Positions 91 through 48,680 of a stretch of DNA of 64,000 nucleotides are shown in pieces (the stretch's first letter is position 1; every line of letters begins with the position of its first letter). Origin of the DNA: a virus. A program made the translations under genes and the position numbers. The notes below the pieces were generated by a model that ran no database searches, had not been told where the DNA came from, and saw nothing but the letters and a program-made list of their open reading frames with translations. The stretch covers positions 33,902 through 97,901 of IMG/VR virus record IMGVR_UViG_3300034407_003683, one strand, 5' to 3'.

Positions 91-927
91 TTGGAACTAA
101 ATATATTATGTACATCTAAACCGTGTGATGGTCTTTTGTATTACAGCTATGAATATTGTAGTTATCTAAATTCAATTGGAATTAAAACACAATTAATTAT
201 AATTCCACATCCAGGATTTAATCAAGAAGATTACTTTAATTCAATTACATCAAAATATATCTCATATCAAAATGTAACATTTGATCCAGATAGATGGTCA
301 AATACTACACTCATTATGGGTCGAAGCATGCTGACAATTGGATATCTTAACAGAAATAGATATTCCATGGAACAATTGCTCTTACTTCATTTACTTTTTA
401 GAGATACAATTGTTGCTGTCTATTCTGAAAATCATCCAATCGAATATGAAAATGCCTTAGAGTATTTTTGTCCATACGATGTAATTGATATCTGTGACTA
501 TGATGTATATCCAAATGGTGTTGGAGAACATTTTGAAAAGAGAATTAATTTTGACATATATAAACCTATAATCAATGATATTAAATTTAAATATCTTTTC
601 AATGGAACCAATAAGAAATACTATACTGCAGCGCAAAATATTTTACATAAATATAAGTCACATGGAATTTTAGTATATGATCTAAGTGTCATTGATATAA
701 ACAACAATAATATTATAGTGCCTATGGATAATTTATTAGGTTCGTTTGAATCATACGTCTATACAAAAAATATATTGGATCCAGCTCCACGATTAATTCA
801 AGAGTGTAAACACTTTAATAAAGAAATAATTATAGAAAATTCCAATCGCGGCCTAGAAGTCTATATGAATAGGAATACTTATGAAAAAAATACTACTAGT
901 TTCTGGTTGCAGTTTTACAACAGATAA
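91..927 (+). CDS. putative glycosyltransferase-like protein (GT-B-like C-terminal end)
   Basis: The 278-residue product begins at a TTG preceded by a purine-rich ribosome site (GAGGAAAAGGGG, 73-84); no in-frame ATG lies near. I do not recognise a family with certainty. A stretch near residues 229-236 (DPAPRLIQ) followed by an EC and a strand ending in IIIEN resembles the donor-binding end of GT-B glycosyltransferases. It heads an overlapping operon of sugar-modifying enzymes and overlaps the next gene by 47 nt, which supports a role in glycan assembly. No signal peptide or membrane segment is evident. Confidence 0.5.
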   Translation: MELNILCTSKPCDGLLYYSYEYCSYLNSIGIKTQLIIIPHPGFNQEDYFNSITSKYISYQNVTFDPDRWSNTTLIMGRSMLTIGYLNRNRYSMEQLLLLHLLFRDTIVAVYSENHPIEYENALEYFCPYDVIDICDYDVYPNGVGEHFEKRINFDIYKPIINDIKFKYLFNGTNKKYYTAAQNILHKYKSHGILVYDLSVIDINNNNIIVPMDNLLGSFESYVYTKNILDPAPRLIQECKHFNKEIIIENSNRGLEVYMNRNTYEKNTTSFWLQFYNR

Positions 928-1615
928 TTTTAATTCGCTTTTTCACCCAGAAATATCATGCGCTTGGCCTAAATGGCCAAAATTGTTAGCAAATAAATTA
1001 GATATGGATTTAATCAATTTAGCTAATTCAGGTGCTGGTAATGAATACATATATAGTACTCTTATTGACAAAATATCTGAAATTAATCCAAAAAATATAG
1101 GGTTAACTATTGCAGCATGGTCACAATCACAGCGCTGTGACTATGAAATAAGAGATACTTCCCGATGGCTACATGAAAGAATTGACGAAAAAGGTGACAT
1201 ACATTATTTTGTTAGAAAAAGTTTAAGATATTATTATAGTTTTCAATTATTATGCGAAAGACTAGATATTCCATATAAGCAAATGCAAATGATAGAATTA
1301 TTTGATGATTATCTTAATGGGTTAAAAGGGTTGCCCGGAAAAAATAATGAAAGAACTATATTATATCCAAAAAATAAATCTATATCTCGAGATAAAGTGA
1401 ATGCGTCGTTTTGCACTCATTCAATATTTGACAAAATAGATGATAATATGTTTTTAGGTTGGCCAATCTTACCCGAGTTAAATGGATATAATATACAAAA
1501 CAAAGTAACAGATAACTCTAGATTAAGGCATATTTTTTCTCTTTCTGAATTAGATAGCCACCCAAATAAAAAAGGTCATGAAATGATAGCGGAATTTATA
1601 TATGAAAATCTTTAG
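881..1615 (+). CDS. SGNH/GDSL-type hydrolase-like protein
   Basis: 244 residues. Block I is GCSFT near residue 9 (putative nucleophile Ser11), an NSGAGNEY segment near residue 48 fits the block with the oxyanion Gly/Asn, and SHPNKKGHEMIA near the C-terminus supplies the His of block V. SGNH enzymes hydrolyse esters, often acetyl groups on carbohydrates, or act as O-acetyl transferases. Its place between a glycosyltransferase-like gene and a carbamoyltransferase suggests editing of an acyl group on a glycan (inference). It starts inside the previous gene and ends inside the next, so translation is probably coupled. Confidence 0.7.
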   Translation: MKKILLVSGCSFTTDNFNSLFHPEISCAWPKWPKLLANKLDMDLINLANSGAGNEYIYSTLIDKISEINPKNIGLTIAAWSQSQRCDYEIRDTSRWLHERIDEKGDIHYFVRKSLRYYYSFQLLCERLDIPYKQMQMIELFDDYLNGLKGLPGKNNERTILYPKNKSISRDKVNASFCTHSIFDKIDDNMFLGWPILPELNGYNIQNKVTDNSRLRHIFSLSELDSHPNKKGHEMIAEFIYENL

Positions 1616-3086
1616 CGCAGCTCTTAATTCACATGATCATAATACATATGATGGTGTCTTGCACAAACAAATGGAGAGATATACTCGCTTTAAGCATAAT
1701 ATCCCATACCATTTTGATGCGTATGATATACATCCAGTTGAAACAAGGCAAAATAAATACGATTATACTTTAATTAATGATTTTTATAAAGAACATTTTC
1801 TTTCTCAATATAAATTATTAGCTTTTACTTTTACTACAAATGCCCTTTCTAAATTAAAAAGTCATAATATACATCAAAACTTTATAAACTTTAAACCAAA
1901 AAACATATGGGACTACTGTAAAATTGATAATCAATATTATATTGACCATCATCAATCTCATGCAACATATGCATACTTGAGTTCTGGTTATAATGAGTCT
2001 GATATATTAGCAATTGACGGTAATGGATCTAATTTTAAATGCATCTTTATTGATAAATTTGGTAATATTACAGATTTATCTAATAAATTACCTATCGGTC
2101 TAATATGGAATTTTATATCATATAATTGTGGGTTCGGTTATCTCAATGCGGGAAAGGTGATGGGGTTGGTAGCATATGGTGAATATAATAACTTACACAA
2201 TTCTCTTTTTAATATAATGGTGACTGATATGGATAATAGTAAAAGTGATTATAAAGATTATTTAAAAAATGAGAATAAATTAGATTTAGCATTTACTTTA
2301 CAAAAATTTACAATGGAACAAGTGTTCAAATATGTATTATCTCTTAAAACTTCAGATAATATATGTATAGCTGGTGGTGTTGCATATAATGGCTATATGA
2401 ATGAAGAGTTTACAAAGCATTATAGAAACGTACATGTACCTCCGGCATGTGGGGATGAGGGACAATCACTTGGGGCTTATATGCACGCCGACTATATTTT
2501 AAATAATAATATCCATGTACCTGAAACATATGCTGGACAAGAGTATAAATTTGATGAAGGAGACCCAATTACACCTAGAGAAGTTGGTCAAGCAATTGCT
2601 GATGGAAAAATTATAGGATGGTTTAATGGTAAATCTGAATCAGGAAATAGAGCTTTAGGTAATCGTAGTATTCTTGCTGATCCTCGTAATGCTCATATAA
2701 AAGATATTATTAATGAAACAATAAAAGAAAGAGAAGATTTTAGACCATTTGCGCCTGCAGTATTGGAACAACACTATAAAGATTATTTTAATACAAATCA
2801 ACCTAGCCCATATATGTCGCGTATTGTGCCAGTTAAATCAGATAAGATACCTGGTGTGACTCATATAGATAATACTGCTAGGATACAAACGGTAAATAGA
2901 AAACAGAACGAAAAATTTTATGATGTAATACATGGATTTTATCAAGCAACTGGAATTCCTATGGTATTGAATACAAGTTTTAACTGTAAAGAACCAATAG
3001 TTGAAACACCAGAAGATGCAATAAGAACATTTAAAAGAACTAAGTTGGATATGGTAGTGATTAATGGAAGAGCATTAAAGAAATGA
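1602..3086 (+). CDS. NodU/TobZ/CmcH-family O-carbamoyltransferase
   Basis: 494 residues. Members of this family transfer carbamoyl from carbamoyl phosphate, through carbamoyl-AMP, to a sugar or antibiotic hydroxyl. The Kae1-like metal-binding motif HHQSH is at residues 116-120, followed by AIDGNGS (about 137), GGVAYNG, GDEGQSLGA, and a YrdC-type C-terminal part with SGNRALGNRSILADPR, FRPFAPAVL and LNTSFNCKEPIV. The protein is shorter than the usual 550-600 residues because the N-terminal segment is compressed, but the catalytic motifs are present. It overlaps the preceding hydrolase gene by 14 nt and the next gene by 4 nt. The acceptor is probably a phage- or host-derived glycan. Confidence 0.9.
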   Translation: MKIFSAALNSHDHNTYDGVLHKQMERYTRFKHNIPYHFDAYDIHPVETRQNKYDYTLINDFYKEHFLSQYKLLAFTFTTNALSKLKSHNIHQNFINFKPKNIWDYCKIDNQYYIDHHQSHATYAYLSSGYNESDILAIDGNGSNFKCIFIDKFGNITDLSNKLPIGLIWNFISYNCGFGYLNAGKVMGLVAYGEYNNLHNSLFNIMVTDMDNSKSDYKDYLKNENKLDLAFTLQKFTMEQVFKYVLSLKTSDNICIAGGVAYNGYMNEEFTKHYRNVHVPPACGDEGQSLGAYMHADYILNNNIHVPETYAGQEYKFDEGDPITPREVGQAIADGKIIGWFNGKSESGNRALGNRSILADPRNAHIKDIINETIKEREDFRPFAPAVLEQHYKDYFNTNQPSPYMSRIVPVKSDKIPGVTHIDNTARIQTVNRKQNEKFYDVIHGFYQATGIPMVLNTSFNCKEPIVETPEDAIRTFKRTKLDMVVINGRALKK

Positions 3087-3409
3087 AATATATAAATCCA
3101 CAATGCGTAAGCTTCTCTTATAATGAAAATGGAAAAAAAATATACAAATCTCCATACGGATGGTGTAAAGGTATTGCTTACTGTACTGATGGATTTTTAT
3201 TACCATGTTGTTGGTGTGATCAAACAAATCTTTATGAAGATTTTAAAAATTTAGGTTTTTATAATGAAAATTTAAAATTAGAAAATAATGATAGTATAGA
3301 AGATATATTACTTTCAGAAACATGGAAAAATTTTATCCATGTTATATTAAGCACTCCCCATTTAGCCCCTCGAGTTTGTAAAAAGAAATGTGGTATATAT
3401 GAGGGATAA
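3083..3409 (+). CDS. stand-alone SPASM/twitch-like Fe-S protein
   Basis: 108 residues with clustered cysteines (C28, C34, C42, C43, C45 and C99, C103). The segment GIAYCTDGFLLPCCWCDQ and the C-terminal CKKKC resemble auxiliary iron-sulfur SPASM/twitch domains, which normally follow a radical SAM core in one chain. Here the domain is its own gene, and a radical SAM core is encoded immediately downstream with 20 nt overlap. The likely role is substrate or cluster partner of that enzyme (inference). It starts 4 nt inside the carbamoyltransferase gene. Confidence 0.6.
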   Translation: MKYINPQCVSFSYNENGKKIYKSPYGWCKGIAYCTDGFLLPCCWCDQTNLYEDFKNLGFYNENLKLENNDSIEDILLSETWKNFIHVILSTPHLAPRVCKKKCGIYEG

Positions 3410-4061
3410 TGATTATTATCGATATATGCTACATCAAAAAGAAAATGCTAGCATTAATATTGATACGTCTAATAAGTGCATTCTAGAATGTCCTGGTTGC
3501 CAACGAAATGATTTAAGAAATAAAGATAAAATAAAAAATGGCAATATTATGCCTATATCTGATTTTATAAAAATTGTAGAATATTACGATAATATAAACT
3601 TATGCGGTCAAATATCAGATCCAGTTTATTATAGACATTTTAATGAATTTTTAGATATTACAAAAGAATATCCGACTAAAACTTTTAAAATAGCCACCGC
3701 GGCTCATCAAAAAAATTTACAATGGTATAAAAATGCATTTAATAGACATAATAATAATGTTCAATGGATTTTTGGTTTAGACGGTTTACCCAATACTAGT
3801 TTTTTATATAGAATAAAACAGAATAGTCAATTAATATTTGATGCCATGATATTAGGCACAAAATTAAATAAAAAAATTTCATGGCAATTTATAGTTTTTG
3901 ATTATAATAAACATCAAATTGAAGAAGCAAAAAAGATAGCAAAGGAAAATGATATAAGATTTATATTAACAATATCTGATAGAAATAGAAATAGATCAGA
4001 TAGTCCAGAAGAATATAAAAAAAAATATAAGATAAAAAATACAAAAAGAATTATAACATGA
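3399..4061 (+). CDS. short radical SAM protein (core domain)
   Basis: About 220 residues. The CX3CX2C motif CILECPGC is near residues 27-34 and would bind the [4Fe-4S] cluster that cleaves S-adenosylmethionine. The ATG at 3399 is preferred; a GTG at 3390 is an alternative that adds three residues. The chain ends after the partial TIM barrel and has no auxiliary cysteines of its own; the upstream 108-residue protein carries them. Probable role: radical modification of a sugar or peptide in the glycan cassette. The substrate cannot be read from sequence. Confidence 0.75.
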   Translation: MRDNDYYRYMLHQKENASINIDTSNKCILECPGCQRNDLRNKDKIKNGNIMPISDFIKIVEYYDNINLCGQISDPVYYRHFNEFLDITKEYPTKTFKIATAAHQKNLQWYKNAFNRHNNNVQWIFGLDGLPNTSFLYRIKQNSQLIFDAMILGTKLNKKISWQFIVFDYNKHQIEEAKKIAKENDIRFILTISDRNRNRSDSPEEYKKKYKIKNTKRIIT

Positions 4062-4762
4062 ATATTATATGTGTTAAATGGGGTGATAAGTTTAATCATG
4101 AGCATGTTAATAGGCTCTATAAGATGATACTTAAAAATATAAAAGATGATTTTACATTTGTGTGTTACACAGAAAATCCAAATAATCTACACCCGGATAT
4201 TAAAACTATTCCACTTGATCTCAATTTAAATCTAGAAAATTGGTGGTGGAAACTTACACTCTTTAAACATAAAACGGATGAAGTTAATATCTTTTTTGAT
4301 CTTGATGTAGTAATTCAAAATGATATTACACATCTTAAAGATCTTTGTGTAGAAGATATGTTGTATATGATAAAAGCATATTGGAAAACATATCCTTTAA
4401 CTGAATTTGATACCAATCTAAACTCTTCTGTTATGATATGGAAAGGTGATTTATCTGATCTTTGGATTAAATTTGAAAAAGATCAAGATTATTATATGCT
4501 CAAATATAATGGTATAGATTCTTATTTAGATCATGATCAACATGATAAACTACTTTACATTCCGAAAGGTGAAGTTTATTCTAGGTTATATGGTATAGAT
4601 GAGAATAACTATTGGAAAGTTGGCACAGAATTTAAAAATTATTTCTATTCAGAAAAATATAATATATGCATTTTTAATGGTTGGCGTAGGAAAACCGATA
4701 AGATTAATAACAAATATTTACTAGATAATAATGGATACGAAGGCTTTGAACAATATTATTGA
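4058..4762 (+). CDS. GT-A type glycosyltransferase
   Basis: 234 residues. The nucleotide-sugar/metal motif FFDLDVVIQND (DxD) lies near residue 80 after a GT8-like N-terminal region (NIICVKWGDKF). The WWWKLTLFKH stretch just before it is typical of phage and host enzymes that track a sugar donor. It starts 4 nt inside the radical SAM gene and overlaps the next gene by 32 nt. Donor and acceptor are unknown. Confidence 0.75.
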   Translation: MNIICVKWGDKFNHEHVNRLYKMILKNIKDDFTFVCYTENPNNLHPDIKTIPLDLNLNLENWWWKLTLFKHKTDEVNIFFDLDVVIQNDITHLKDLCVEDMLYMIKAYWKTYPLTEFDTNLNSSVMIWKGDLSDLWIKFEKDQDYYMLKYNGIDSYLDHDQHDKLLYIPKGEVYSRLYGIDENNYWKVGTEFKNYFYSEKYNICIFNGWRRKTDKINNKYLLDNNGYEGFEQYY

Positions 4763-5363
4763 TCCAATATATTGGAAAGTTTTATGGAATGCTGCTAATG
4801 CAGGCTACGACATGAAACAAATGCTTGACAGTTTGTCTCCTAATCAAATTAAATCTAAAGTATGGTTAGTTGAAATGTTAAGTATATGTGCAATAAAAAA
4901 TCCATCTATTCAATTATATGGTGGGTGGAATGGATTTCCTCTTATTGACTTGTTAAGAGAAGAATTCAAAATTTCATTATTAGAAAATATTGATTTAGAT
5001 GAATCAGCGCTGAAGGTCTATAAAAATTTTATTAACAAAAAACAACTCAAAACTAGTGTATATAGAGCAAGACATGGAGATGCGTGTGAGCCATATAAAG
5101 TTGATAAGGAAATAGATATTGTAATTAATACTTCATCTGAACATATGCCAGATTTACCAGAACTTATAAAAAGTAAAAACTATAAAAAATCTTGTATATT
5201 TGCGTTACAGAGTAATAATATGTTTTACGTTAAAGATCATATTAATTGTGTAAATAGTAAAGAAGAATTAGAAACAAAATCTAAATTATCTAGAATATTG
5301 TATTCTGGTACATATGTAATGCCAAATGGATATGAAAGATATATGGTAATAGGCAATGTCTAA
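4731..5363 (+). CDS. class I SAM-dependent methyltransferase-like protein
   Basis: 210 residues. A glycine-rich strand-loop (LYGGWNGFPLIDLL) is followed by an acidic strand (LLENIDLDESAL) and the segment IDIVINTSSEHMPDL, then FALQSNNMF and HINCVNS. This order matches a methyltransferase family common in T4-like marine phages. The substrate is not known; the operon position suggests a glycan or small molecule. It overlaps the neighbouring genes on both sides (32 nt and 8 nt). Confidence 0.65.
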   Translation: MDTKALNNIIDPIYWKVLWNAANAGYDMKQMLDSLSPNQIKSKVWLVEMLSICAIKNPSIQLYGGWNGFPLIDLLREEFKISLLENIDLDESALKVYKNFINKKQLKTSVYRARHGDACEPYKVDKEIDIVINTSSEHMPDLPELIKSKNYKKSCIFALQSNNMFYVKDHINCVNSKEELETKSKLSRILYSGTYVMPNGYERYMVIGNV

Positions 5364-6261
5364 AGTTATTTTTAGTTTATATATTGACATCCCGGAAAAT
5401 GAATTAGACGAACAGTCTGCTCATTGGGGATCAAACATATCAAAAACTCTTCATACGAAAATACAATTAAAAGATAATTATAAATGGCTTATAGAGTCTC
5501 AACAAAGATATGCCAACTATATTGGTGTTGAGTATAAACACTATACATATGATTCTGCTTATATAAAATATAAAGAATGGTTTAATTTAAATTATCCAGA
5601 GGTTACGTCATATAACATTGTTAATTTTTATAAACTTAAATTATTATATAATTTAGCAAAAGACTATGATGAAATATTATATCTAGATCTAGATGTTATT
5701 CCAGTTTCAACCGATAACTTTTTTAAAACTTGGGATTTATCACAAGGTATTGCTATTATGAGTGGTACAGCAGAAAGTCAAAAAGATATTGAAACTGATA
5801 ATAGAGAACTTTTAAGAATTAAATATACGAATAATAGTAATAGATCGCCAATCGCAAAGTATTGGAATGCAAAAGCTATGCTTTTAGAAAAAGGATATAC
5901 ATGTGAATCAACAGTATTTAATACTGGAATTGTTGGAGCATCTCAAAAATGGCTTAAAGCTTTAGACTATTTTGGTGACTTTAGAAATATAATAGATTAT
6001 ATGACGCAGCTAAAAACAGATGATGGATTTTATCCAGAACAGATTCAAAGCTTATTTGGATATGATAATGAAACAATATGGGCATACAAAACACTAAGTA
6101 AAGATGTACCATGGCAAAAGCTAACACCAGATTGGCATTGTTTTATGGATAAATGGAGTTATATTCCATCAAATACTAAACTAGTTCATTGTATCAATAA
6201 AGATTTTAAGTATGTAAGAGATTGGTATGAAAAGAATAATATTCTCAATCTTTTCAAATAA
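5356..6261 (+). CDS. GT-A type glycosyltransferase
   Basis: 301 residues. The motif YLDLDVIPVS near residue 113 is the DxD nucleotide-sugar site, and FNTGIVGAS near residue 192 is the usual acceptor-side loop of this fold. It is related to the next gene product (YFDLDVIPNT, INTGIIGGN), so the pair probably arose by duplication. They overlap by 35 nt. Confidence 0.75.
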   Translation: MSKVIFSLYIDIPENELDEQSAHWGSNISKTLHTKIQLKDNYKWLIESQQRYANYIGVEYKHYTYDSAYIKYKEWFNLNYPEVTSYNIVNFYKLKLLYNLAKDYDEILYLDLDVIPVSTDNFFKTWDLSQGIAIMSGTAESQKDIETDNRELLRIKYTNNSNRSPIAKYWNAKAMLLEKGYTCESTVFNTGIVGASQKWLKALDYFGDFRNIIDYMTQLKTDDGFYPEQIQSLFGYDNETIWAYKTLSKDVPWQKLTPDWHCFMDKWSYIPSNTKLVHCINKDFKYVRDWYEKNNILNLFK

Positions 6262-7003
6262 AGTAGAGAAAAATCACCAGTCAACCGGCGATTTTAAAAT
6301 ATCTCAATTTATAAAATATAAAGATTCTTTAGTTAAATCGCAAAAGGCGTATGCACAAATTTGTAATGCTGATTACGAATTATTTGAAGTATCAGAAACG
6401 CTGTATGATAAAATTCAATTTGACAAACTTTATAAAATGGAAGAGTTAACTCAATATTATGATGAAGTTCTTTATTTTGATTTAGATGTCATTCCTAATA
6501 CAAATGAAAGTTTTTTTAAATCTAATGATTTAAATTCCATTTGTGCATATTCATTTGAAAGAACGTTACAATCAAATGTTCTACAAAGAAAAATATCAGA
6601 AAATGATTTTGATAAAATGAATGTATTTTCAAAAGGCTGTTGTAAAAAATCTATGCTATTACTTGAAGACATAAATTCTGATTATAAAGTAATTAACACA
6701 GGTATTATTGGAGGTAATAAATACTCTATAGATGCTTTATCATTTGATAAGCGATTAGAAAGTACCTATGATATTTACAATCAAACAATTACTGATAATC
6801 TTTATCCTATAGAAATTTCTAGAAACTGGAGACCTAATAATGAAGTGTTTATTACATATATGATAGAAAAATACAAAGTTCCATTTATTAATATTGGTAT
6901 TCAGTGGAATTTTATAATTGACGATATATATCCAAATGTCTCAGAAGCGGGTAAATTAATACATGTAGTGCATAAGGATTTTGGTAAAATATATGACAAA
7001 TAA
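6227..7003 (+). CDS. GT-A type glycosyltransferase, paralogue of the previous gene
   Basis: 258 residues with YFDLDVIPNT near residue 83 and VINTGIIGGN near residue 154. The same motifs in the same order are in the upstream product. The C-terminal LIHVVHKDF matches LVHCINKDF upstream. The start ATG at 6227 lies inside the upstream gene, consistent with coupled translation. Confidence 0.75.
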   Translation: MKRIIFSIFSNKVEKNHQSTGDFKISQFIKYKDSLVKSQKAYAQICNADYELFEVSETLYDKIQFDKLYKMEELTQYYDEVLYFDLDVIPNTNESFFKSNDLNSICAYSFERTLQSNVLQRKISENDFDKMNVFSKGCCKKSMLLLEDINSDYKVINTGIIGGNKYSIDALSFDKRLESTYDIYNQTITDNLYPIEISRNWRPNNEVFITYMIEKYKVPFINIGIQWNFIIDDIYPNVSEAGKLIHVVHKDFGKIYDK

Positions 7004-8201
7004 AAGAATAAAAAAACTTGAAACTATAGCAGATATCGTTTCAAAATTACCCTCTTATTGTTCTGCTGCATTTACTGAAATGTATGTAGACAATAATGGT
7101 CAATATAGATTATGCTGTCATGCTAAACCAAATCCAGTACTTAAACAATATACTAGTGATTCCATTTTACCATTTGAATATTTTTTATCAAAAGAAATGG
7201 AAAATATTCGTGACTCAATGCTTGAAGGAAAACATATCCCAGATTGTGAAAAATGTAATTTGTTGGAAAAATATGGAAAATATTCATATAGACATAAATA
7301 CATTGCGCGAGACGGGTTTATAACAGATATACAAGAAAAAACAATTAATCTAAAATTAAGAATTTCAGGATCATTCTGTAACCTTGCATGCTATATGTGC
7401 AATCCAGTAAATTCTACTACAAAGAGAAATGAATTAAATAAAATATTTGACATTGATAATACATTAAATGTATTTACTACAGGTATGAAAAATGCTAAAA
7501 GTGTTAAACATGCGCAGTGGAATGATATTGTAACTAATATATTAGAAAATATTCACCTCATTAAAATAATTCATATGACTGGTGGGGAAACTTTACAACT
7601 TCCTAAATATTGGGAATTTTTGGATCTTATTCCAGATAAACATGCAAAGGAATTAATACTTACACATGATACTAATTTAACAAAGATTACATATAATAAT
7701 CGCCATGTTTCAGATAATGCAAAGAGATTTAAATCATTTAATTTAAGTATTTCATGTGATCATATATTAGATAAATTATCTTGGATCAGATATCCAATTA
7801 ACGTAGAAGAATTTGAGAATAATTTACAAGAAATAATATTAGATAAGAATATTAATAAAAACATTAATTGTACGGTTTCAATATTAAATATTGATGACTT
7901 ATTTGAAATTAGAGACTACTATAAAAATAAATTTAAAGTTGATGTTTTATTTGAATGTATGGTTGTAAGCCCAAAAGAATTATCAATTTCTAATTTGCCA
8001 GAAAAACTTAAAGATGTATATAAAGAAAAATATAAAAATGATTTTGAATTTATATTAGCAGAGCTTAATAAACCAGCAGATCTAAAATTATTTGATAAAG
8101 GTCTAAAGTACTGTGATAAATTGTCAGCTCACCGACAATTTAATTTTAGAGTTCTATGGAAAGATTGGCTAGAAAAAGTTACGACTTATAAAGATCAATA
8201 G
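6993..8201 (+). CDS. radical SAM protein with N-terminal twitch/SPASM-like cysteines
   Basis: About 402 residues from the ATG at 6993 (a TTG at 6981 would add four). The radical SAM motif CNLACYMC is at residues 129-136. Cysteines at 23, 41, 42, 85 and 88 precede it and resemble a twitch auxiliary cluster site placed N-terminal to the core. TGGETLQLPKYWEFLD follows, as in this family. Such twitch-type radical SAM proteins are frequent in T4-like marine phages, but their reaction is unknown. It is the last gene of the plus-strand cassette. Its 3' end overlaps the convergent minus-strand gene by 23 nt with no visible terminator. Confidence 0.8.
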   Translation: MTNKRIKKLETIADIVSKLPSYCSAAFTEMYVDNNGQYRLCCHAKPNPVLKQYTSDSILPFEYFLSKEMENIRDSMLEGKHIPDCEKCNLLEKYGKYSYRHKYIARDGFITDIQEKTINLKLRISGSFCNLACYMCNPVNSTTKRNELNKIFDIDNTLNVFTTGMKNAKSVKHAQWNDIVTNILENIHLIKIIHMTGGETLQLPKYWEFLDLIPDKHAKELILTHDTNLTKITYNNRHVSDNAKRFKSFNLSISCDHILDKLSWIRYPINVEEFENNLQEIILDKNINKNINCTVSILNIDDLFEIRDYYKNKFKVDVLFECMVVSPKELSISNLPEKLKDVYKEKYKNDFEFILAELNKPADLKLFDKGLKYCDKLSAHRQFNFRVLWKDWLEKVTTYKDQ

Positions 8202-8667
8202 CAACTGACAGCGCTTCAATTAAATTATGTGCTTTTCTTAATTTAGTTTTTGCTTCTTTGTCTTCAGAGTCTTTTACAAAATCTAATTCAAATAATTTAA
8301 GTTTAAACATAAAAAGTTTTTCTTTATCTCTTTTAGAATCAAATTTTTTAAAAATATATTCTGCCAATATTTCGTGCAATGCGCTATCAATATCATTAAT
8401 ATCATAAATCATACCGCGTTCTTTAGCAACTCTGATTACTTGATTTTCATATGCTTCTACTTGATCACGAATATGCTTATAAGTTAATTCATGAAGTGTA
8501 TCAATGTCAATGTACTCGAGCAACTTTTGCCAATTAGGATCACCTTCTTCAGCATTAATGACTATTTCAATTGTCTCATCTGCATTTCCCCAATACGAAG
8601 TAACAATAGTTCTTTCATTATTTGAAAAGTGTGCAGTTAAAAATTCATATTTATTTGTATCAATCAT
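8179..8667 (-). CDS. conserved hypothetical protein at the end of the structural operon
   Basis: 162 residues, acidic, mostly helical in appearance. I do not recognise a domain. It is the last gene of the minus-strand structural run and follows the 355-residue virion protein by 2 nt, so it is probably co-expressed late. The 3' end runs 23 nt into the convergent radical SAM gene. Confidence 0.6.
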   Translation of the reverse strand: MIDTNKYEFLTAHFSNNERTIVTSYWGNADETIEIVINAEEGDPNWQKLLEYIDIDTLHELTYKHIRDQVEAYENQVIRVAKERGMIYDINDIDSALHEILAEYIFKKFDSKRDKEKLFMFKLKLFELDFVKDSEDKEAKTKLRKAHNLIEALSVAIDLYKS

Positions 8668-8669
8668 CT

Positions 8670-9737
8670 CTATACGCCTGTCTTAAGATTATATGTACTT
8701 TGGATTACTGATGTTCCATCAGGGAATTCTTGTGCGCGATAATCGTCAGTATTAACATAACGCGTCTGATAGTTACCAGCACCGTTTAATTTGGTATCTG
8801 TAATTGCAGCACCAGCAGCAAAGTTACCAGTACCATTAATACTATAGTCTAAATTATTTGCCGCCCAATATCTAGCAGTATCTCTTAACCATGTTTCAAG
8901 TGTTGTCCAATCATATCTTCTCACACTGTTTGCTGTATCATGATATATCATATTATGTGGAAGTTCCATATGAATACCATTACCAAATAAGAGTTTATAT
9001 TCAACTGCTGTAAATGGTTGATCTAATGCTTCTGGAATTCCGCCGGCAGAATATGCTGCAGTATTTGCTCGAGTATCATTAAATACTGTACCAACATCAG
9101 TGTAACCGGCACCATCAAAATTTGTTGCACCTTGATATGCTATAGCAGTATTATTCCAGAAAACATATTGACCAGTCCATCCTAAAATGCCAGGATTACC
9201 AGGATTAAGTGCCGGAACAATAAGACTATTAATCACATCACTCATAGACATATGCTGAATTACTGGTTTTGAAAATGAATAGTAATTCATTCGTAATGGT
9301 CTTGGAAAATTATAGTCAAGAGATAATCCAGTAGTTTTGGTTTGCTCTATTCTAGAATAATTTACAGTGACTGTAGATGGTTCGGCAGTCTCAGCTTCTG
9401 TAGGGAATCTTTCAACTCTAGTTAAGTATGCACCTGCCTGCAACCTTGTATCAGCCATTGTACCTAGGTTACCACCACTAGCTACATAACTTAGTATAAC
9501 ACTAGGATTTGTAGAATAGATATTTCTTATCCATTGATGTACTCTAGCCAATTCCTGGCTAGTCATCTCGCGCAGACCATATGCTCCTGCACGATCTCTC
9601 ATTCCATGGATTTTACCTATAGGTGTTCCGGCAGAATGTTCATCGGCCATGTTAGGGTTATATTCGACCTCATTACCTGTGATCTTACTTATACCCTTAT
9701 GCCAATCAACAATAAGTGGTCTTATCGGTCTAGTCAT
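8670..9737 (-). CDS. putative virion structural protein
   Basis: 355 residues, rich in Asn, Gly, Thr and Tyr, with no catalytic motif. It begins with TRPIRPLIVDWHKG and contains a predicted beta-rich body. AAGGA lies upstream of the ATG. Its place after gp8, the DUF4815 protein and two fibre-like proteins suggests a baseplate- or fibre-associated component. The family is unnamed to me. Confidence 0.6.
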   Translation of the reverse strand: MTRPIRPLIVDWHKGISKITGNEVEYNPNMADEHSAGTPIGKIHGMRDRAGAYGLREMTSQELARVHQWIRNIYSTNPSVILSYVASGGNLGTMADTRLQAGAYLTRVERFPTEAETAEPSTVTVNYSRIEQTKTTGLSLDYNFPRPLRMNYYSFSKPVIQHMSMSDVINSLIVPALNPGNPGILGWTGQYVFWNNTAIAYQGATNFDGAGYTDVGTVFNDTRANTAAYSAGGIPEALDQPFTAVEYKLLFGNGIHMELPHNMIYHDTANSVRRYDWTTLETWLRDTARYWAANNLDYSINGTGNFAAGAAITDTKLNGAGNYQTRYVNTDDYRAQEFPDGTSVIQSTYNLKTGV

Positions 9738-9746
9738 ATTAAATCC

Positions 9747-10358
9747 TTAAGGTATTGTTACATCACTGTCAGTAGAAAGTAGATAACCACCTAATATAAT
9801 TGTGCCTACAGAATCTTTAATTGAGAATGGAAAGACATAAGAGAATGATTGACTGTCAAATGTAAGTGAACTATCAATTGTGAGATTTTGAATTGTGACA
9901 TTACCAAAATGAGCACTGTCTGCACTAATTTTGTTAAATTTAGCACTATCAAAATTTAGATATTCACCAGATAAATTTCTAATCCGAGCACTGTCAATGT
10001 CTGCGCTATCAAATCTTAAATGATGACCAGTTGCAATATTAAAATATCCACTATCAATATCTGCACTATCGGCATAAAGATAATTTACTCTCAGTCTATT
10101 AATAACAGCACTATCTGCATATAATGTCTTAACACTAAAAGTACCACCGGAATCAAATAGTGCTTCTGTGATACTATCAACTAATTCATGAAGATAATTG
10201 AGTGCTGATACAAAGTTGGAATCATTTTTACCAAACCGCGATGAGTCAAATGCTGAATCTAAATTATCCAGATCCCCCATATAATCAGACAACTTATTAT
10301 TCTTTGCAACCCACGTGCCAATAGAATTAGATGTTTGAATTTGTATTTTACGTGCCAT
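9747..10358 (-). CDS. Asp-Ser-repeat fibre-like protein (short paralogue)
   Basis: 203 residues with 16 Asp-Ser dipeptides. Repeats of the type ADSAxIxxL and FDSAxI occur every 10-15 residues between about 75 and 180, which suggests a beta-helical or other fibrous fold. The N-terminus (MARK, then YMGDLDNLD and NFVSALNYLHELVD) matches the next upstream gene product (NFVSAANHLFKYLDLVD), so the two are paralogues. A late promoter lies just upstream. Likely a tail or baseplate fibre subunit. Confidence 0.65.
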   Translation of the reverse strand: MARKIQIQTSNSIGTWVAKNNKLSDYMGDLDNLDSAFDSSRFGKNDSNFVSALNYLHELVDSITEALFDSGGTFSVKTLYADSAVINRLRVNYLYADSADIDSGYFNIATGHHLRFDSADIDSARIRNLSGEYLNFDSAKFNKISADSAHFGNVTIQNLTIDSSLTFDSQSFSYVFPFSIKDSVGTIILGGYLLSTDSDVTIP

Positions 10359-10380: not shown

Positions 10381-10388
10381 TATTTATA
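10381..10388 (-). promoter_or_regulatory. T4-type late promoter
   Basis: TATAAATA on the minus strand, 22 bp before the ATG of the short Asp-Ser-repeat protein. It overlaps the last codons of the upstream fibre gene. Confidence 0.65.
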
Positions 10389-11565
10389 ATCGCCCATCAC
10401 TATCATATTGACTAATTAGGTATGCACCAAATAGTCTAACAGGTTGGAAAGATACTGGATTTATTGAATCAGAATATATTGATAATAATGAAGTATATCT
10501 AAAGTGGTTATCTACTTCATTATCAGTACCTAGACTATCATGCCATACAACTCTACCACTATCAATTCTATATGGAAAAGCACTATCAAAACCAGAATCT
10601 GCAGAATCAAATATATATCCAAAGCTAATACTATCTGTAAATCTAGCATCAAAATCTAATGCAAACCCATCCAATTTTATGATACCAGGTGCGGCAGTAA
10701 TTGCTTGACCCCATGGTTGATCACTCAGATAAAATGACGAATCTTGTCTAAAATTAGGATCATTTGATGAATCAAAATAATAACTAGAATCTGTAGCTAA
10801 TTTAAATATTCCAAATTTTGCGCTGTCATATCTCAGAGATGATGAATCATTAGTGTAACCAGAATCCCATGGTCCTCTCTTACGGAATGGAAATGGGAAA
10901 TTATTTCCCGGACCCGACAGATTAACTATATTTGCACTATCTAGGAATAATCCAAATTTTGGATTACTGTCAAACCTAATTGCCCAATTTCCAATTGAAT
11001 CACCAGAATCTAATGAATCACCAGGATTATAGAAAGAATATAATTCACTATCTGTATAGTGCCATTCACCAACTCTTAAATAACCACCAGTAAAGTTATT
11101 AAGATAAGCACTATCAATTGTCACATTTAATCTATGAGGAAGTGGTCTATTGAATTGTGTATATGGTGGTAAGACCCAAGCACCAAATGAATCATGATAT
11201 CCAAAACTACTATCCAAAGAATCTCTGAGAACAATAGAACTATCAATAATTGTAGACAATTTATCAACTTTAAGTCTACGAATAACGGCACTATCAGATA
11301 CTAATGTTTTATTAAATCTTAGTGGTATATCACTATCGTTGCTGTCACCACCAAAGAGAACATTATCAACAAGATCTAAATATTTGAATAAATGATTTGC
11401 TGCACTTACAAAATTATTATCTGTATTTGCTGCTGCAAACCCAGGGAGATAATCGGCAGTTTTAGCAAGATCATCTAGATCTTCTTGGTAGTCACTTATA
11501 TCATTAAGCCCACCAATAAAATCTGTGAGAGTATCATTACTATCAAATAAAGATTTACGCGCCAT
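10384..11565 (-). CDS. Asp-Ser-repeat fibre-like protein (long paralogue)
   Basis: 393 residues carrying 29 Asp-Ser dipeptides, far above expectation, spread along the whole chain in contexts such as VSDSAVIRRL, IDSAYLNN, LDSANIVNL and YDSAKFGIF. The N-terminal 80 residues share a pattern with the shorter paralogue downstream. Probably a fibre or baseplate decoration protein. The repeated Ser could be a modification site (inference) or could simply reflect a beta-repeat rule. Confidence 0.65.
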   Translation of the reverse strand: MARKSLFDSNDTLTDFIGGLNDISDYQEDLDDLAKTADYLPGFAAANTDNNFVSAANHLFKYLDLVDNVLFGGDSNDSDIPLRFNKTLVSDSAVIRRLKVDKLSTIIDSSIVLRDSLDSSFGYHDSFGAWVLPPYTQFNRPLPHRLNVTIDSAYLNNFTGGYLRVGEWHYTDSELYSFYNPGDSLDSGDSIGNWAIRFDSNPKFGLFLDSANIVNLSGPGNNFPFPFRKRGPWDSGYTNDSSSLRYDSAKFGIFKLATDSSYYFDSSNDPNFRQDSSFYLSDQPWGQAITAAPGIIKLDGFALDFDARFTDSISFGYIFDSADSGFDSAFPYRIDSGRVVWHDSLGTDNEVDNHFRYTSLLSIYSDSINPVSFQPVRLFGAYLISQYDSDGRL

Positions 11566-11767: not shown

Positions 11768-13338
11768 TATACACTCAGTGCAATTACTCTTAAATCTTTA
11801 ATAATTGGTCCTCGGGCGCGGCTAATAGATCTCATAACAATCTTTAACTGGAATGTGGTAAATTCCGGTAATGCTCCACCATCACCACCTGCAAGATATT
11901 GATATTCTCTGAATATATATGGATTTTCATCAGAAGGATTATTACTAGTTGTTGTAAGAGCAGTCCAATTAGTTGTTCTAATATCTCCATCTGCAGCTGC
12001 CGTTCTATAGTATACTAAGAAATCAGCAACCGGGGCTTTATTTGCAGCTAAAATAATTTTAAGACCAACTGCAGGTTCTTTAAGAGTTATAGTTTTTGTA
12101 ATATGTTTTGATGCAGATGATCCACCAGTAGGTTGTGTTTCATCAACATAATTTAGTGGAACATTAAATCCAGAAGTTGCGGCAGAATCTTGTTTATCAA
12201 TAATTCTATCAATAAGTGTTATGGATGCTCTCTGCATATCCAACATTGGTGATACAATATTAGAACCAGTAGAAAAATCAATATGATGTTCTAAAGATTT
12301 CACATTTGCACCTAATTCAGTTGTTTCAATATCATCATTTGCAACAACATAGGCTTTGCTTTTATAAACGGTATTTAAAATTTGAGCCTGCTGCACTGTA
12401 TTTTCTTTTGAATATGCAGTTTCCGAGCCAGCAAATGATTTACCGCCAGTACCTAATATCCCCGCTGAATAACTAGTATTTTCTGGAATCAGCAATTGTA
12501 CATTAGAATAATATGTTGACCATGGAATATTTTTGGTTACATTAACTGTATTACCACCACCAATAGCATTTGATGTTGCAGTACCGCCGGCAGTAATTTC
12601 ATACCCAGTCCAATCAACTGCTGTAATTGTTTTTGCAGTACCCATGATATCAGTAGTTGCCAAACCGCCAATTGTTGATGCTGAATCCAATCCTCTAATT
12701 GTGACTGGATCATTTACGATAAACCCATGTCCAACATCAGCAATTCTTACAGTTGCACTAGAGGCAAATGTTTGTACTGGATCCAATCCCAACAACTTTT
12801 TAGGAAGTGAGGCATTCTTAAGTACTGCAGTACCGGTAGTGGCTGTAAAATTAGCTCTATGTATAACAAAAGCCATATCTTGATCTTGGGCAGCGGTAAA
12901 TGTTCCACCATTTGCTGAATAGAAAAGTGTACCCAATGCTGGGTTTCTGGCAATTCTTCCTGCAGTAGTACCTACTTCAAATTCATCAATTTGTGCAATA
13001 AAAATTTCTGCATTAGGCGATGATGAGATAACTACAATTGCATAATCAGTTAAACCTTTTAGATAAAGGGGTTCCTCAAAAGCAAATGTTGTTGTAAGTG
13101 ATGCATCAGAACTACCATTAATATTACCACCATTGACGTATACAATTGATTGTGGTACTATTTCAGTTGTTGATGGAACTCCATTTACCATTGGTCTAAT
13201 TTGTAAACAAACTGGATCAGCCCCTGCAGTTTTAAAATATAATTCTATCTTAGTAAGATAAACTCCAGTTGGTTCATCTACAAAAAAAGATTGTGCAATA
13301 GGATTTCTACTAATTTGATAACCGAGCGAGGTCGCCAT
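11767..13338 (-). CDS. virion structural protein (baseplate-associated, NPIAQSFFV family)
   Basis: 523 residues. It opens with NPIAQSFFVDEPTGVYLTKI, a motif I associate with large baseplate-region proteins of marine T4-like phages, usually at the end of a DUF4815-type chain. Here it is a separate gene directly after the DUF4815 protein. The rest is beta-rich with GGDGG-type loops and ends in FQLKIVMRSISRARGPIIKD. No enzymatic motif was seen. Confidence 0.65.
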   Translation of the reverse strand: MATSLGYQISRNPIAQSFFVDEPTGVYLTKIELYFKTAGADPVCLQIRPMVNGVPSTTEIVPQSIVYVNGGNINGSSDASLTTTFAFEEPLYLKGLTDYAIVVISSSPNAEIFIAQIDEFEVGTTAGRIARNPALGTLFYSANGGTFTAAQDQDMAFVIHRANFTATTGTAVLKNASLPKKLLGLDPVQTFASSATVRIADVGHGFIVNDPVTIRGLDSASTIGGLATTDIMGTAKTITAVDWTGYEITAGGTATSNAIGGGNTVNVTKNIPWSTYYSNVQLLIPENTSYSAGILGTGGKSFAGSETAYSKENTVQQAQILNTVYKSKAYVVANDDIETTELGANVKSLEHHIDFSTGSNIVSPMLDMQRASITLIDRIIDKQDSAATSGFNVPLNYVDETQPTGGSSASKHITKTITLKEPAVGLKIILAANKAPVADFLVYYRTAAADGDIRTTNWTALTTTSNNPSDENPYIFREYQYLAGGDGGALPEFTTFQLKIVMRSISRARGPIIKDLRVIALSV

Positions 13339-16300
13339 TTACTTATCTCTTTCCATATAATTAGCAATTCTACCAATTAATCTATACAAAGGCCTTACCG
13401 TTTTACCCGAAATAGCCTGTACTATTTTTTGTTTAGTATTAAGTGGTTTATTTTCAACAAGGTCTCTGTAATATTCTGTGAGGAATACACCACCTTTAGC
13501 CATAAATTGATGTTTTTTCACTTTATTTGCAATCCATGGTCCAATAATGTCATAACCTTTCATCATCATAGGATCATTTCTTCTCATCATGATGCCATAT
13601 TTCTTTGTAATTCTAAATAGGTTATCATCAATTAAGCCTAATCCAAATGTTGCGGTACAAATATGAGTACCACCACCGCCGCCGCCACCGCCGTCGTCAC
13701 CGCCGTCATCATCTCCATCACCATAACCGCCCACACCACTGCCAACGCCTCCATAACCGCCAACATCATCCGCGCTCTGGAAAAGGCTACCGCCACCACC
13801 ACCATCTTCGTAGCCGCCACCACCACTAGAACGTCTGTTTTCAACATTTATTCTGTGTTCAACATTTAGAACTCTGGTAGATTTAATAGTTTGATCAACA
13901 GTATCCAGCCAACCGGTCGCGGAATATAGTGCCCTAGCAATTGTACCTGAAGCATTTTCTCTATTTGAACTAATATCTAAGATTTTAAATTCAGTAACAC
14001 CAGTTCTAAATCTAAGGGCATTTGTATTAGGAATAAAGAATGATCCTTCAACAGCACCATTAATATCTGTTGTTAGTACAGAAGATCCATCCGGATGTTG
14101 TGTAGCATTATTCTGTGTATTACCATAATCAATCGGATCATTTGAAATGCGAGTAAAAGTTTCTTCTCTTACCCAAGCATCAACACGTATTCCATCAAAA
14201 TATGCCCAAACCTTTGAATTAGGTCTTAGTCCTTGAGCCTTAAAGTATACCTTCCTTGATCTCATGAAAGGAATGAGAGCGATATTAAGTACTCTTTGAT
14301 CAACAACTTCAAGTAATGTTTCTTCCGAAACAACTTTATTTACATTGGAGATAATTTGTGAAGATGTGGTATCGGTCTTTGTGTTTGTTGAGTGTCCAAC
14401 ATTTAGATTATCAATGCCGATGCCACCCCAGTTCCACTGCCAGTTATTCCAAAGATAAGCTTGTGTAGTATCTAGTTTTGTACCACCACTAATTGTTTTC
14501 TTGGCCCTTACATTTATTTCTCTCCATTCATCAGATGATGGTGAAATATCAATGTCACCATGATATATTACTGTTTCAAATGGATTAATAACTGTTGATC
14601 TAGAAGCTTGATTCTGAGTAATAAATGGTACTTCAGTATATTTAAGATAGATATTATCACCCTTCTTAATTACATTAGTTGATTCTGCAGAATCATAAAC
14701 TAGTCTAATATTATCTTCATTAAACCTAGCAGCAAGATAATTTAATTTAGGATCAATTGCTGCTCTATAATCATTTTCTCTAATTGCAGAAAATATTTGT
14801 GTAGAGAAATTGTCAACAAAGAATCCAGATTTTGTTCTATCATTACCTGCAGAATCAAACACTTGTAGATTCTTTGTATCCATTTCTAAAAGACTTAACG
14901 CAGTAACATCTTCTAGATTATCAACTCTTCTTTCCAACTCTGCAATATCACGCATAGTATACCTACGATGATCAATTCTTTCCATATTTAAATCAGAATC
15001 ATTAATCGTATTTGCATTAAATGTGATATTAAACAAAGGTAAGTTTTTAGGTGGAACTATAGGTCTTTGTGGATTAAGACTAGGTGTACCTTTACGAAGT
15101 ATAATATCACCTTCAGTATTAATTGTTAAGATTGCACTCTGTGGTTGATAATAGTTAATATCAGCAGTAACTGTATCATTTACTTGTGGTAATTCATTAA
15201 TTCTTGCACCTAAACCTGTAGATGCAAAGTTACCCGCGGAATCAACTACTGATCTAAAATCTAGTACATTTCTAAGAGAAATAGTTCTACCAGTATTTAA
15301 TGTATGTGCCGGAATATCTCTATAATCAACTTGACCGGTGTAAGAGTTAATAGCAAAGAAATCACCATTCACACCATGGTTAAAATGCTTATACCTTACA
15401 AAGATAGGACCAGATGGAGCTGAATATCCTGGCTTAAGTAACAACTGGCCTTTGCCATAATAATTATCTCTTTGACCATTATCCAAGTTAAATCTGTTAC
15501 TTACATCAGTACCATTAGAATCAACGGTTGTAACTCTTATAACTTTAAAAATATCAGGTTTATCAAATTGAAAATTACCATTACCATCAACTGCTCGGGT
15601 AAGTGTTGTTTCATTAAGTGTTTTATTTCTAATGACGCCGACAGATTTATTAACATAAGCCAAAATTTCTACAGTAGCACTTATAGGTAAGCCTGTTAAG
15701 TTTGCAGCAGTAGATCCTGCACCACTATTACCCACACTAGTAAGAATAATATCATCATTGGTTTCTGCATATATCCAATCATTCACGTTTGCAAATGTCT
15801 CACCAGTGGCTGTAAGTGAAATGGATGCTGCACCAGAACCATTTGTAGTAACTTGGAATCTTCGCTGTACTGTCAGAGAAATATCATCTAAAGCCTGAGG
15901 TCTAACTCTAGGTAATGAAAACAAACTTCTATTTTTGTTAACATCTTTTAATTCAGCTTTACTCAATGGCCGATATAGATTAAAATAGCTACTAGATGAA
16001 CTACCGATACTTATTGCATTTCTAAAATTCTGTCCGGCATTCATTTGAACATCAAACAAATAATAACGATAATAATTACCGGTATCTTCGGTTACAGCCC
16101 TAACTCTACAAGTACCAATAGTAGATCCACCATGTGCAGCTGCAGTCCGAATATTTAGTGGTTCAAATGTATTAATATTTGGAAGACCAGCAGTATTATT
16201 AGCAACACCGGCATCAACCAAAACATAGTTACCATAATCAGCCGCAATTACCTCATTACTAATAGTGGAAGTAGTTGCAGGTTTTGTAATTCTTTGTTTT

Positions 16301-17328
16301 AATGGTGCGTGTAATATTGCTCTGTAACCATCAACAACTGCAACACCATCACTGATTTTCATAATCAAATTATCTACATCTGAATCTTCTTCAAATGTAA
16401 GTTTAAATGGCTTTACCAGATAATCGCCAGAATTTTCTTTAATGCGCGTTGCGATAACATTGTTAATAACATTGAATGAATTATTTTCATCAACCGTACG
16501 AGCAACAACTCCATCTTTCAATGTAACAACAGGAATAAAATTATCTGTTGATGTAATCTTTGATTGTATAGTTAACTGTAAAGTAATTCTAAGTCTATCG
16601 GCACCAGGTGATGAAATATTTGGTGTAGCGCCTTGATTATCATATAGCCCTGTGTCATCATCTACAGTAACAATATCTTCAACAATTTTATATCCAACAA
16701 CATCTGATGCAGTATCAGAATATCTACTTACAATTGTTGATTGTGCCTCAGTAAATACAAAGAAACCTTTGGCAAAGTATATACCTTGTGAGATAGAAAA
16801 TCGTGTGCCGCGGCCGACTGCAGGGTTAACAGCTGTATTTGTTGTCTGTACCTTAAGTGTTACAGCACCATTTGTAATTGTTTCACCCGGAGTGAATTTA
16901 ACAGACGAAGCTCCAGCAACACCAGCCGGAGCATTTGTATATGCAACATAAATGGTCGTTGGATTGGCAGCGCCATCGGCAGCAGCTACTTCAATAATTC
17001 TTGCAGTTACACCAGAAGTATTACCTGTAAAAATAGTACCAATAATTGTAGTTGGATCTGACGGAGGTGCATAGCTAGAAATATCTAATTTTGCAAATTC
17101 ATATGCATTATTAAGAATTGACTCACCAGGTTTTACAACTCCACCTTCCTTAAATAGGTTGGTTCCAACATGTCTAATTTGATTCTGCAGAATGGTTTGC
17201 ATCTGTGTAAGTTCACGTGCTTGCAAAGGTCTGCCACTATTAAATAGGATTCTGTAGTAGCCATCACTGTCTACAAAATCATCCTTGTAAGTGTTACTTA
17301 AAACTCTTGAATTTAGTGTGCTAGCCAT
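13339..17328 (-). CDS. large DUF4815 virion protein
   Basis: 1329 residues. The N-terminal 90 residues (YYRILFNSGRPLQARELTQM followed by QTILQNQIRHVG) are the DUF4815 signature. A long beta-rich body follows, with RVLNIALIPFMRSRKVYF near residue 1020. Residues about 1170-1230 form a low-complexity Gly/Asp linker. The last 105 residues make a separate domain starting HICTATFGLGLIDDNLF. DUF4815 proteins sit in the baseplate region of cyanophages and relatives. Role in the baseplate is inferred from position after gp8. Confidence 0.8.
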   Translation of the reverse strand: MASTLNSRVLSNTYKDDFVDSDGYYRILFNSGRPLQARELTQMQTILQNQIRHVGTNLFKEGGVVKPGESILNNAYEFAKLDISSYAPPSDPTTIIGTIFTGNTSGVTARIIEVAAADGAANPTTIYVAYTNAPAGVAGASSVKFTPGETITNGAVTLKVQTTNTAVNPAVGRGTRFSISQGIYFAKGFFVFTEAQSTIVSRYSDTASDVVGYKIVEDIVTVDDDTGLYDNQGATPNISSPGADRLRITLQLTIQSKITSTDNFIPVVTLKDGVVARTVDENNSFNVINNVIATRIKENSGDYLVKPFKLTFEEDSDVDNLIMKISDGVAVVDGYRAILHAPLKQRITKPATTSTISNEVIAADYGNYVLVDAGVANNTAGLPNINTFEPLNIRTAAAHGGSTIGTCRVRAVTEDTGNYYRYYLFDVQMNAGQNFRNAISIGSSSSSYFNLYRPLSKAELKDVNKNRSLFSLPRVRPQALDDISLTVQRRFQVTTNGSGAASISLTATGETFANVNDWIYAETNDDIILTSVGNSGAGSTAANLTGLPISATVEILAYVNKSVGVIRNKTLNETTLTRAVDGNGNFQFDKPDIFKVIRVTTVDSNGTDVSNRFNLDNGQRDNYYGKGQLLLKPGYSAPSGPIFVRYKHFNHGVNGDFFAINSYTGQVDYRDIPAHTLNTGRTISLRNVLDFRSVVDSAGNFASTGLGARINELPQVNDTVTADINYYQPQSAILTINTEGDIILRKGTPSLNPQRPIVPPKNLPLFNITFNANTINDSDLNMERIDHRRYTMRDIAELERRVDNLEDVTALSLLEMDTKNLQVFDSAGNDRTKSGFFVDNFSTQIFSAIRENDYRAAIDPKLNYLAARFNEDNIRLVYDSAESTNVIKKGDNIYLKYTEVPFITQNQASRSTVINPFETVIYHGDIDISPSSDEWREINVRAKKTISGGTKLDTTQAYLWNNWQWNWGGIGIDNLNVGHSTNTKTDTTSSQIISNVNKVVSEETLLEVVDQRVLNIALIPFMRSRKVYFKAQGLRPNSKVWAYFDGIRVDAWVREETFTRISNDPIDYGNTQNNATQHPDGSSVLTTDINGAVEGSFFIPNTNALRFRTGVTEFKILDISSNRENASGTIARALYSATGWLDTVDQTIKSTRVLNVEHRINVENRRSSGGGGYEDGGGGGSLFQSADDVGGYGGVGSGVGGYGDGDDDGGDDGGGGGGGGTHICTATFGLGLIDDNLFRITKKYGIMMRRNDPMMMKGYDIIGPWIANKVKKHQFMAKGGVFLTEYYRDLVENKPLNTKQKIVQAISGKTVRPLYRLIGRIANYMERDK

Positions 17329-42455: not shown

Positions 42456-42689
42456 TTAATATGGGTTACCACTACCATCTACACCAGATACCACAATTGG
42501 TGGGCACTCACATACTTTAGTTGTAGCAATCTGATTAGTTAATTCATCAATTCGCTTATATGCATTCTGCAATTGTTCTTGTAATTCGTAGACATTTTTT
42601 TCCAAAAGTTCAATATGTCCATCTCTGTTCATAATTTCCCTCCGAAAAAGTTCCGTTTCCGATTGTTCGTGATCTTGAAATTCTGCCAT
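42456..42689 (-). CDS. small coiled-coil protein
   Basis: 77 residues. A coiled coil (ELLEKNVYELQEQLQNAYKR then IDELTNQIATTK) is followed by a short tail with CEC and SGVDGSGNPY. Its start lies 61 nt inside the metallopeptidase gene, a long overlap. Function unknown. Confidence 0.5.
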   Translation of the reverse strand: MAEFQDHEQSETELFRREIMNRDGHIELLEKNVYELQEQLQNAYKRIDELTNQIATTKVCECPPIVVSGVDGSGNPY

Positions 42690-43054: not shown

Positions 43055-43081
43055 AAGACACCTCTTTTTGATTATGATACT

Positions 43082-43110
43082 ATTATATCATACTTTTTCG
43101 GAGATGTAAA
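43082..43110 (-). promoter_or_regulatory. repeated early promoter
   Basis: TTTACA (43105-43110), 17 bp, TATAAT (43082-43087), TGATATAAT, then TATCATAATCAAAAAGAGG. Confidence 0.82.
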
Positions 43111-43116
43111 CCCCTT

Positions 43117-45131: not shown

Positions 45132-45132
45132 A

Positions 45133-45831: not shown

Positions 45832-45832
45832 A

Positions 45833-46519: not shown

Positions 46520-46520
46520 T

Positions 46521-48678: not shown

Positions 48679-48680
48679 AA

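Follow-up and report, generated by a model that had tools for sequence, protein, structure and literature searches.

What would a T4-like marine phage do with a compact set of genes for radical, carbamoyl, acyl, methyl and glycosyl chemistry placed among its tail genes? The question is raised by positions 91-8201 of a 64,000-nucleotide stretch of viral DNA (hereafter the window), which covers positions 33902-97901 of the 97.9-kb virus record IMGVR_UViG_3300034407_003683, itself a fragment. Ten plus-strand open reading frames (g1 to g10) tile this interval without gaps, neighbouring frames overlapping by 4-47 nt, which bears out the single cassette of nine to ten overlapping genes described in a first-pass annotation made from the sequence alone. 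The cassette genes form one operon, which is conserved in phages and essentially confined to them. As to its function, we tentatively favour, at somewhat less than an even chance, an early-type operon for a soluble pathway that makes a decorated sugar and attaches it, most likely to a precursor of the host surface glycan.

Organisation of the cassette

The cassette has a promoter-like site of its own. An extended sigma-70-type promoter (TTTACA-N17-TATAAT, with TG before the -10 element) stands on the plus strand at positions 31-59, is near-consensus and recurs upstream of the first gene in relatives. Its score ties for the highest among 90 promoter-like sites in the region, a count that carries no meaning alone because 86 are expected by shuffling. 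Among 21 distinct cassette starts, 13 score at least 11, a value reached by 2.3% of shuffles and by no coding control out of 560; this comparison supports the strong shared promoter proposed earlier. The leader between promoter and g1 is about 25 nt in the window. In many other loci (L053, L054, L055 and L047 among them) only about 6 nt separate the end of the promoter from the predicted start of g1, and their transcripts could be nearly leaderless.

The genes flanking the cassette on both sides are on the minus strand, and the cassette lies inside a minus-strand tail-fibre and baseplate module. To its left, the same record encodes tail-fibre and fibre-assembly proteins; to its right come two genes, the first of them small, and then VrlC-like genes (matches at 11776-17046). 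Base composition also sets the cassette apart, with a guanine-cytosine (GC) content of 27.2% compared with 35.8% in the remaining window, where any 8.1-kb stretch starting past the first 8.5 kb has at least 33.7%.

Conservation across phages and confinement to them

Relatives were collected with two queries. The carbamoyltransferase (g3) query found 195 viral loci, of which 80 were kept for analysis, and an alignment of g1 found relatives in 334 viral contigs, from which 80 loci were likewise kept; g2 alone as a query returned no close relatives in viral contigs. These loci are assembled contigs, some of them near-identical, and the counts below are not counts of independent events.

A recurrent gene order surrounds the carbamoyltransferase: g1, a split radical S-adenosylmethionine (SAM) pair, an SGNH-family gene, a DegT aminotransferase, a further radical SAM gene (family c5), the carbamoyltransferase itself, a nitroreductase, a methyltransferase and genes for GT-A-type glycosyltransferases. 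Its right boundary is a convergent gene of the c10 family in 43 loci. Where g1, the carbamoyltransferase and c10 occur together (n = 30), the SGNH, methyltransferase and GT-A families are present in 29 loci, DegT in 27, and the c5 radical SAM and nitroreductase genes in 25 each. In nearly all loci of this form (form A), the cassette sits between tail-fibre and VrlC-like baseplate genes. Loci anchored on g1 reveal a second form (form B) that has neither the SGNH nor the GT-A genes, and a PseC/LegC/DesI-like DegT sugar aminotransferase is present in 42 of 43 g1-anchored loci. The cassette genes therefore co-occur in related marine T4-like phages, as the first-pass annotation had anticipated.

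Outside phages, 84,980 species genomes of bacteria and archaea yielded only three contigs with g1. Two of these also hold phage flanking genes, and their bins clearly contain phage DNA; the third (7.6 kb) consists entirely of the operon. The three, contigs of metagenome-assembled genomes, are filed as Pelagibacter, Rhodobiaceae and Planctomycetota (L088, L089 and L090). Within the SAR11 order, 296 of 297 genomes lack g1, the lone exception being the 7.6-kb all-operon contig. Distant carbamoyltransferases occur in 171 of the same 297 genomes, with identities over the aligned part mostly at 32-53%. The genes clustered around one of them encode a cytidylyltransferase, an amidotransferase, methyltransferases, a DegT protein and an epimerase, a surface-sugar context.

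Against this background, the window copy appears to be a reduced member of the conserved operon, because the core genes for DegT, c5 radical SAM and nitroreductase were not found in the cassette or elsewhere in the fragmentary 97.9-kb record. Its nearest relatives on the carbamoyltransferase tree (L014-L016) possess DegT and c5. The missing genes may be located outside the record, and the window copy should yield a simpler product or rely on genes beyond the record or on the host.

The c10-family gene (8179-8667, minus strand) that borders the window cassette on the right does so in most loci; its uncharacterised product has no PHROG or Pfam match. A c13-family gene (8670-9737, minus strand) sits between the cassette and the VrlC-like genes.

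Predicted enzymes

The firmest assignment is that of g3 (1602-3086, plus strand, as are all ten genes) to the NodU/TobZ-type O-carbamoyltransferase family, with a predicted ATP- and carbamoyl-phosphate-dependent activity. It matches both Pfam Carbam_trans domains, C-terminal (5.9e-65; 218.4 bits, cut-off 27) and N-terminal (3.1e-18; 66.8 bits, cut-off 24), as well as the PHROG of Nol-like carbamoyltransferases (3.7e-103). The HxxxH metal motif of its Kae1-like domain (H116, H120) and its C-terminal signature align with GdmN, whereas about 110 N-terminal residues of g3 remain unaligned with NodU, TobZ and GdmN. Relatives with solved structures (GdmN, NovN and TobZ) act on small hydroxylated natural products, TobZ being an aminoglycoside enzyme.

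Radical SAM chemistry is represented by three genes. The product of g10 (6981-8201) is a radical SAM enzyme with an N-terminal twitch/SPASM domain that exceeds the NCBI cut-off for NF033640 (224 against 170 bits), and its family carries the CxxxCxxC cluster motif (C133/C137/C140). Fifteen loci encode a g10-type enzyme and the carbamoyltransferase as a single fusion protein, suggesting a common substrate for both. The radical SAM core protein g5 (3390-4061) has a PHROG match at 1.6e-12, and CxxxCxxC is invariant in its family (C30/C34/C37). Its small Cys-rich neighbour g4 (3083-3409) is SPASM-like through a relative: the window protein does not match the SPASM profile, and the relative reaches 19.9 bits, below the cut-off of 21.5. 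Among relatives, members of the g4 and g5 families lie side by side in 42 of 48 cases, which suggests that together they may make up one split enzyme. Profile comparison of g4 with the N-terminus of g10 gave E 0.15, and that of g5 with the radical SAM part of g10 a weak match (E 0.0008, probability 25%).

In full operons, the c5-family enzyme shows weak viperin-like matches over its first 95 residues (L017 9178-10002; PADLOC pVip, 1e-9), a likeness that is probably at superfamily level only. Weak matches of accessory genes to QueC/NAD-synthase, QueE and viperin were not accepted as pathway assignments. A PADLOC scan of nine of the ten window proteins (all except g6) gave no defence match at E 0.001.

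Four genes are of glycosyltransferase (GT) type. The first-pass annotation recognised the enzyme mix of the cassette but missed g1 (91-927), the first gene in nearly all cassettes. This gene has no family match by sequence and a PDB sequence search with its profile was empty, so its fold was predicted. The AlphaFold model (predicted local distance difference test score 91) best matches PimA (Z 14.6; root-mean-square deviation (rmsd) 4.5 over 250 residues) and many further GT4 enzymes, pointing to a GT-B glycosyltransferase with a GT4-like fold, a fold also found in non-hydrolysing epimerases. A phage glycosyltransferase PHROG (9.5e-13) identifies g6 (4058-4762) as GT-A-type. The paralogues g8 (5356-6261) and g9 (6227-7003) belong to one GT8-like family, assigned through a weak GT8 match in one relative (0.0085) and a conserved DxD motif; a PDB sequence search with the GT8 profile gave no match.

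The remaining two genes would modify the sugar or its substituents. The predicted structure of g2 (881-1615) has the SGNH fold (TesA, Z 13.9, rmsd 3.1 over 169 residues), and relatives also point to this family. The Ser and Asp-His catalytic residues (Ser11, Asp225 and His227) are invariant in an alignment of 21 sequences. In that alignment the Asn of the block III GxND motif is not evident, with invariant W80 and R85 standing there, and the product may be a hydrolase or an acyltransferase. A SAM methyltransferase-like protein is encoded by g7 (4731-5363), with a weak Pfam match in the window (0.029) and a stronger one in a relative (2.5e-5).

Related systems

The closest described setting is the host recognition cluster of pelagimyophages, T4-like marine phages in which radical SAM cassettes and glycosyltransferases occur with tail fibres in a variable island by VrlC (Zaragoza-Solas et al. 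2020, PMC7029224). The cassette has the same position, in the structural region beside VrlC with tail fibres. In the portion of that paper available, the island is treated as a whole, and the operon, its conserved core, its promoter and the radical SAM-carbamoyltransferase fusion are not defined. In the open-licence literature, no paper was found that treats the operon as one system or describes its gene combination. The earlier suggestion of an undescribed combination is only partly right, since radical SAM cassettes and glycosyltransferases in this tail region are reported in the 2020 paper.

Pelagibacter phage Mosig EXVC030M, an isolate with a complete genome in which the operon is annotated piecemeal, carries a full-size operon (60990-71305) in the same place and orientation as the window. 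Identity is 60.6% for the carbamoyltransferase, 52.7% for g1 and 42.9% for g2. Unlike the window, Mosig encodes nitroreductases, DegT and the c5 radical SAM; conversely, it lacks the g10-family N-twitch radical SAM and has a single GT8-like gene of the g8/g9 family. More distant are the marine T4-like phages HTVC008M and S-SSM5, whose related carbamoyltransferases are 29-33% identical and whose genomes lack g1. In HTVC008M (L171 8210-12357), the carbamoyltransferase operon includes a methyltransferase, a NadE-like protein and a UDP-sugar dehydrogenase and lies outside the tail region. Cyanophage S-SSM5 (L172 5887-7551) carries a plus-strand carbamoyltransferase on its own, in minus-strand surroundings and close to a fibre gene; this may be the same locus in minimal form.

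A second glycan island occupies positions 42629-50614 of the window on the minus strand, with two GT25 genes, an FkbM methyltransferase, a GT8-like enzyme, further GT-like genes and an NAD-epimerase. The first-pass annotation proposed that this island, the cassette and an SQD1 enzyme may form one decorated-glycan system. The NAD-epimerase (48681-49823) was not found in any of the 39 further phage records that hold the cassette, which include the complete Mosig genome and are otherwise mostly fragments, and a joint system was rejected for want of co-occurrence. The proposed SQD1 has a generic Epimerase match.

Proposed pathway and its alternatives

In the pathway we favour, radical SAM enzymes (g5 with g4; g10) would oxidise or rearrange a sugar or sugar-linked intermediate, g3 would add an O-carbamoyl group, g7 would methylate, g2 would trim or move an acyl group, and the GT-B (g1) and GT-A (g6, g8, g9) enzymes would transfer and extend the sugar. 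The acceptor would be a host surface glycan precursor at the cytoplasmic face, so that the receptor of the infected cell changes and further adsorption falls. We infer this order of reactions and the sugar nature of the product, along with early timing, the acceptor and the benefit.

The presence of four glycosyltransferase-type genes within one operon supports this pathway, as does a sigma-70-type promoter directed against the structural genes. Further support comes from the natural-product substrates of the carbamoyltransferase relatives, the DegT sugar aminotransferase of related operons and the fusion of twitch radical SAM and carbamoyltransferase domains. The host surface glycan is preferred over the virion as acceptor because of that opposing promoter, the host analogue in the SAR11 order and the published proposal for the region, in which glycosyltransferases of the host recognition cluster would alter the host O-chain (PMC7029224). 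The enzyme mix and the SAR11-order cluster also agree with the decorated-glycan side of the earlier suggestion of a natural-product or exotic-glycan pathway. None of the ten proteins has a membrane segment (no hydrophobic 19-residue window over 1.18), and the membrane flippase and membrane glucosyltransferase of Gtr-type O-antigen seroconversion are absent among them.

Several observations weigh against this pathway. A sugar dehydratase, a flippase and a lipid-carrier transferase are all missing from the operon. The methyltransferase (g7) and GT8 (g8 and g9) assignments are weak. Form B relatives dispense with the GT-A and SGNH genes, and glycan extension therefore appears not to be part of the conserved core. 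Finally, the position among tail-fibre genes suits virion decoration equally well.

Virion decoration is the most serious alternative, if a rather unlikely one: the phage's own tail-fibre or baseplate proteins would receive a carbamoylated glycan, for protection or for tuning of receptor binding. Its first support is the conserved position in form-A loci. Fibre-region proteins beside the window cassette are very dense in Asp-Ser dipeptides, at 3.4-5.1 times expectation (9747-10358, 10384-11565 and 18711-19571, plus tail-fibre genes that precede the window in the record). A repeat at the DNA level was ruled out as the source, both serine codon families being used. Such density is found in 10 of 11 loci of the two-GT8 form and in none of 36 others, and the fold matches of g1 include SdgB (Z 13.0), which glycosylates Ser-Asp repeats. 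However, Asp-Ser density tracks one clade of the carbamoyltransferase tree, that of the window, and shared ancestry therefore explains it; a causal tie between these fibres and the cassette was not accepted. Mosig has the operon but no Asp-Ser-dense fibres, which are likewise absent from HTVC008M and S-SSM5. SdgB is not distinct from other GT4 folds in the matching of g1, and Asp-Ser may be merely a structural turn motif. The more specific proposal that a phage-only radical-chemistry system, not borrowed from hosts, builds an aminoglycoside-like carbamoylated sugar and attaches it to the phage's own Asp-Ser-rich tail fibres is improbable; if true, the product would be a first virion glycan built by radical SAM enzymes.

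The combination of DegT and radical SAM recalls the DesI/DesII logic of sugar biosynthesis, and a DesI-type match of DegT is observed. The core (DegT, three radical SAM enzymes, nitroreductase, carbamoyltransferase, methyltransferase and one GT-B enzyme) might make a soluble, aminoglycoside-like small molecule for signalling, counter-defence, or inhibition of the host or a rival. We consider this unlikely, even though form-B cassettes keep the core without the GT-A and SGNH genes and the structural homologues of the carbamoyltransferase (GdmN, NovN, TobZ) come from antibiotic pathways. The window copy lacks DegT, c5 and nitroreductase yet keeps four glycosyltransferases; without DegT in the record, there is no DegT beside a radical SAM gene as in a DesI/DesII-like deoxyamino-sugar pathway; and no exporter or resistance gene was recognised.

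Phage carbamoyltransferases are also reported to act on 5-hydroxymethylcytosine in phage DNA (eLife 2021, PMC8670742), and g3 shares its Pfam domains with the reported enzyme. Glycosyltransferases are a known context of phage DNA modification, and the T4 alpha- and beta-glucosyltransferases are among the fold matches of g1 (Z 12-13.5). The partner required there is a thymidylate-synthase-family gene, which is missing both from the fragmentary 97.9-kb record and from the complete Mosig genome, and is present in only 2 of 10 cassette records. In the same study, carbamoyltransferases adjoining glycosyltransferases sat on unmodified contigs, which also weighs against this role. DNA carbamoylation by the operon is thus very unlikely.

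Recent capture of host surface-polysaccharide genes with no phage-specific role, which the low GC content (27% against 36%) and the distant SAR11-order carbamoyltransferases might suggest, is highly improbable given the 334 viral contigs that encode g1 with conserved partners and position, the low identity of the host carbamoyltransferases, and the essential absence of g1 from the 297 SAR11-order genomes, its single match being a contig of this operon; capture of g1 from a SAR11 host was rejected.

Implications

Myophages of SAR11 and of picocyanobacteria rank among the commonest marine viruses, with a variable tail region that is a presumed determinant of infection range. Within that region, a twitch radical SAM enzyme fused to a carbamoyltransferase offers a specific biochemical lead that is testable in vitro. 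The operon as a whole provides a concrete, testable set of enzymes by which a phage may alter a surface glycan or its own fibres.

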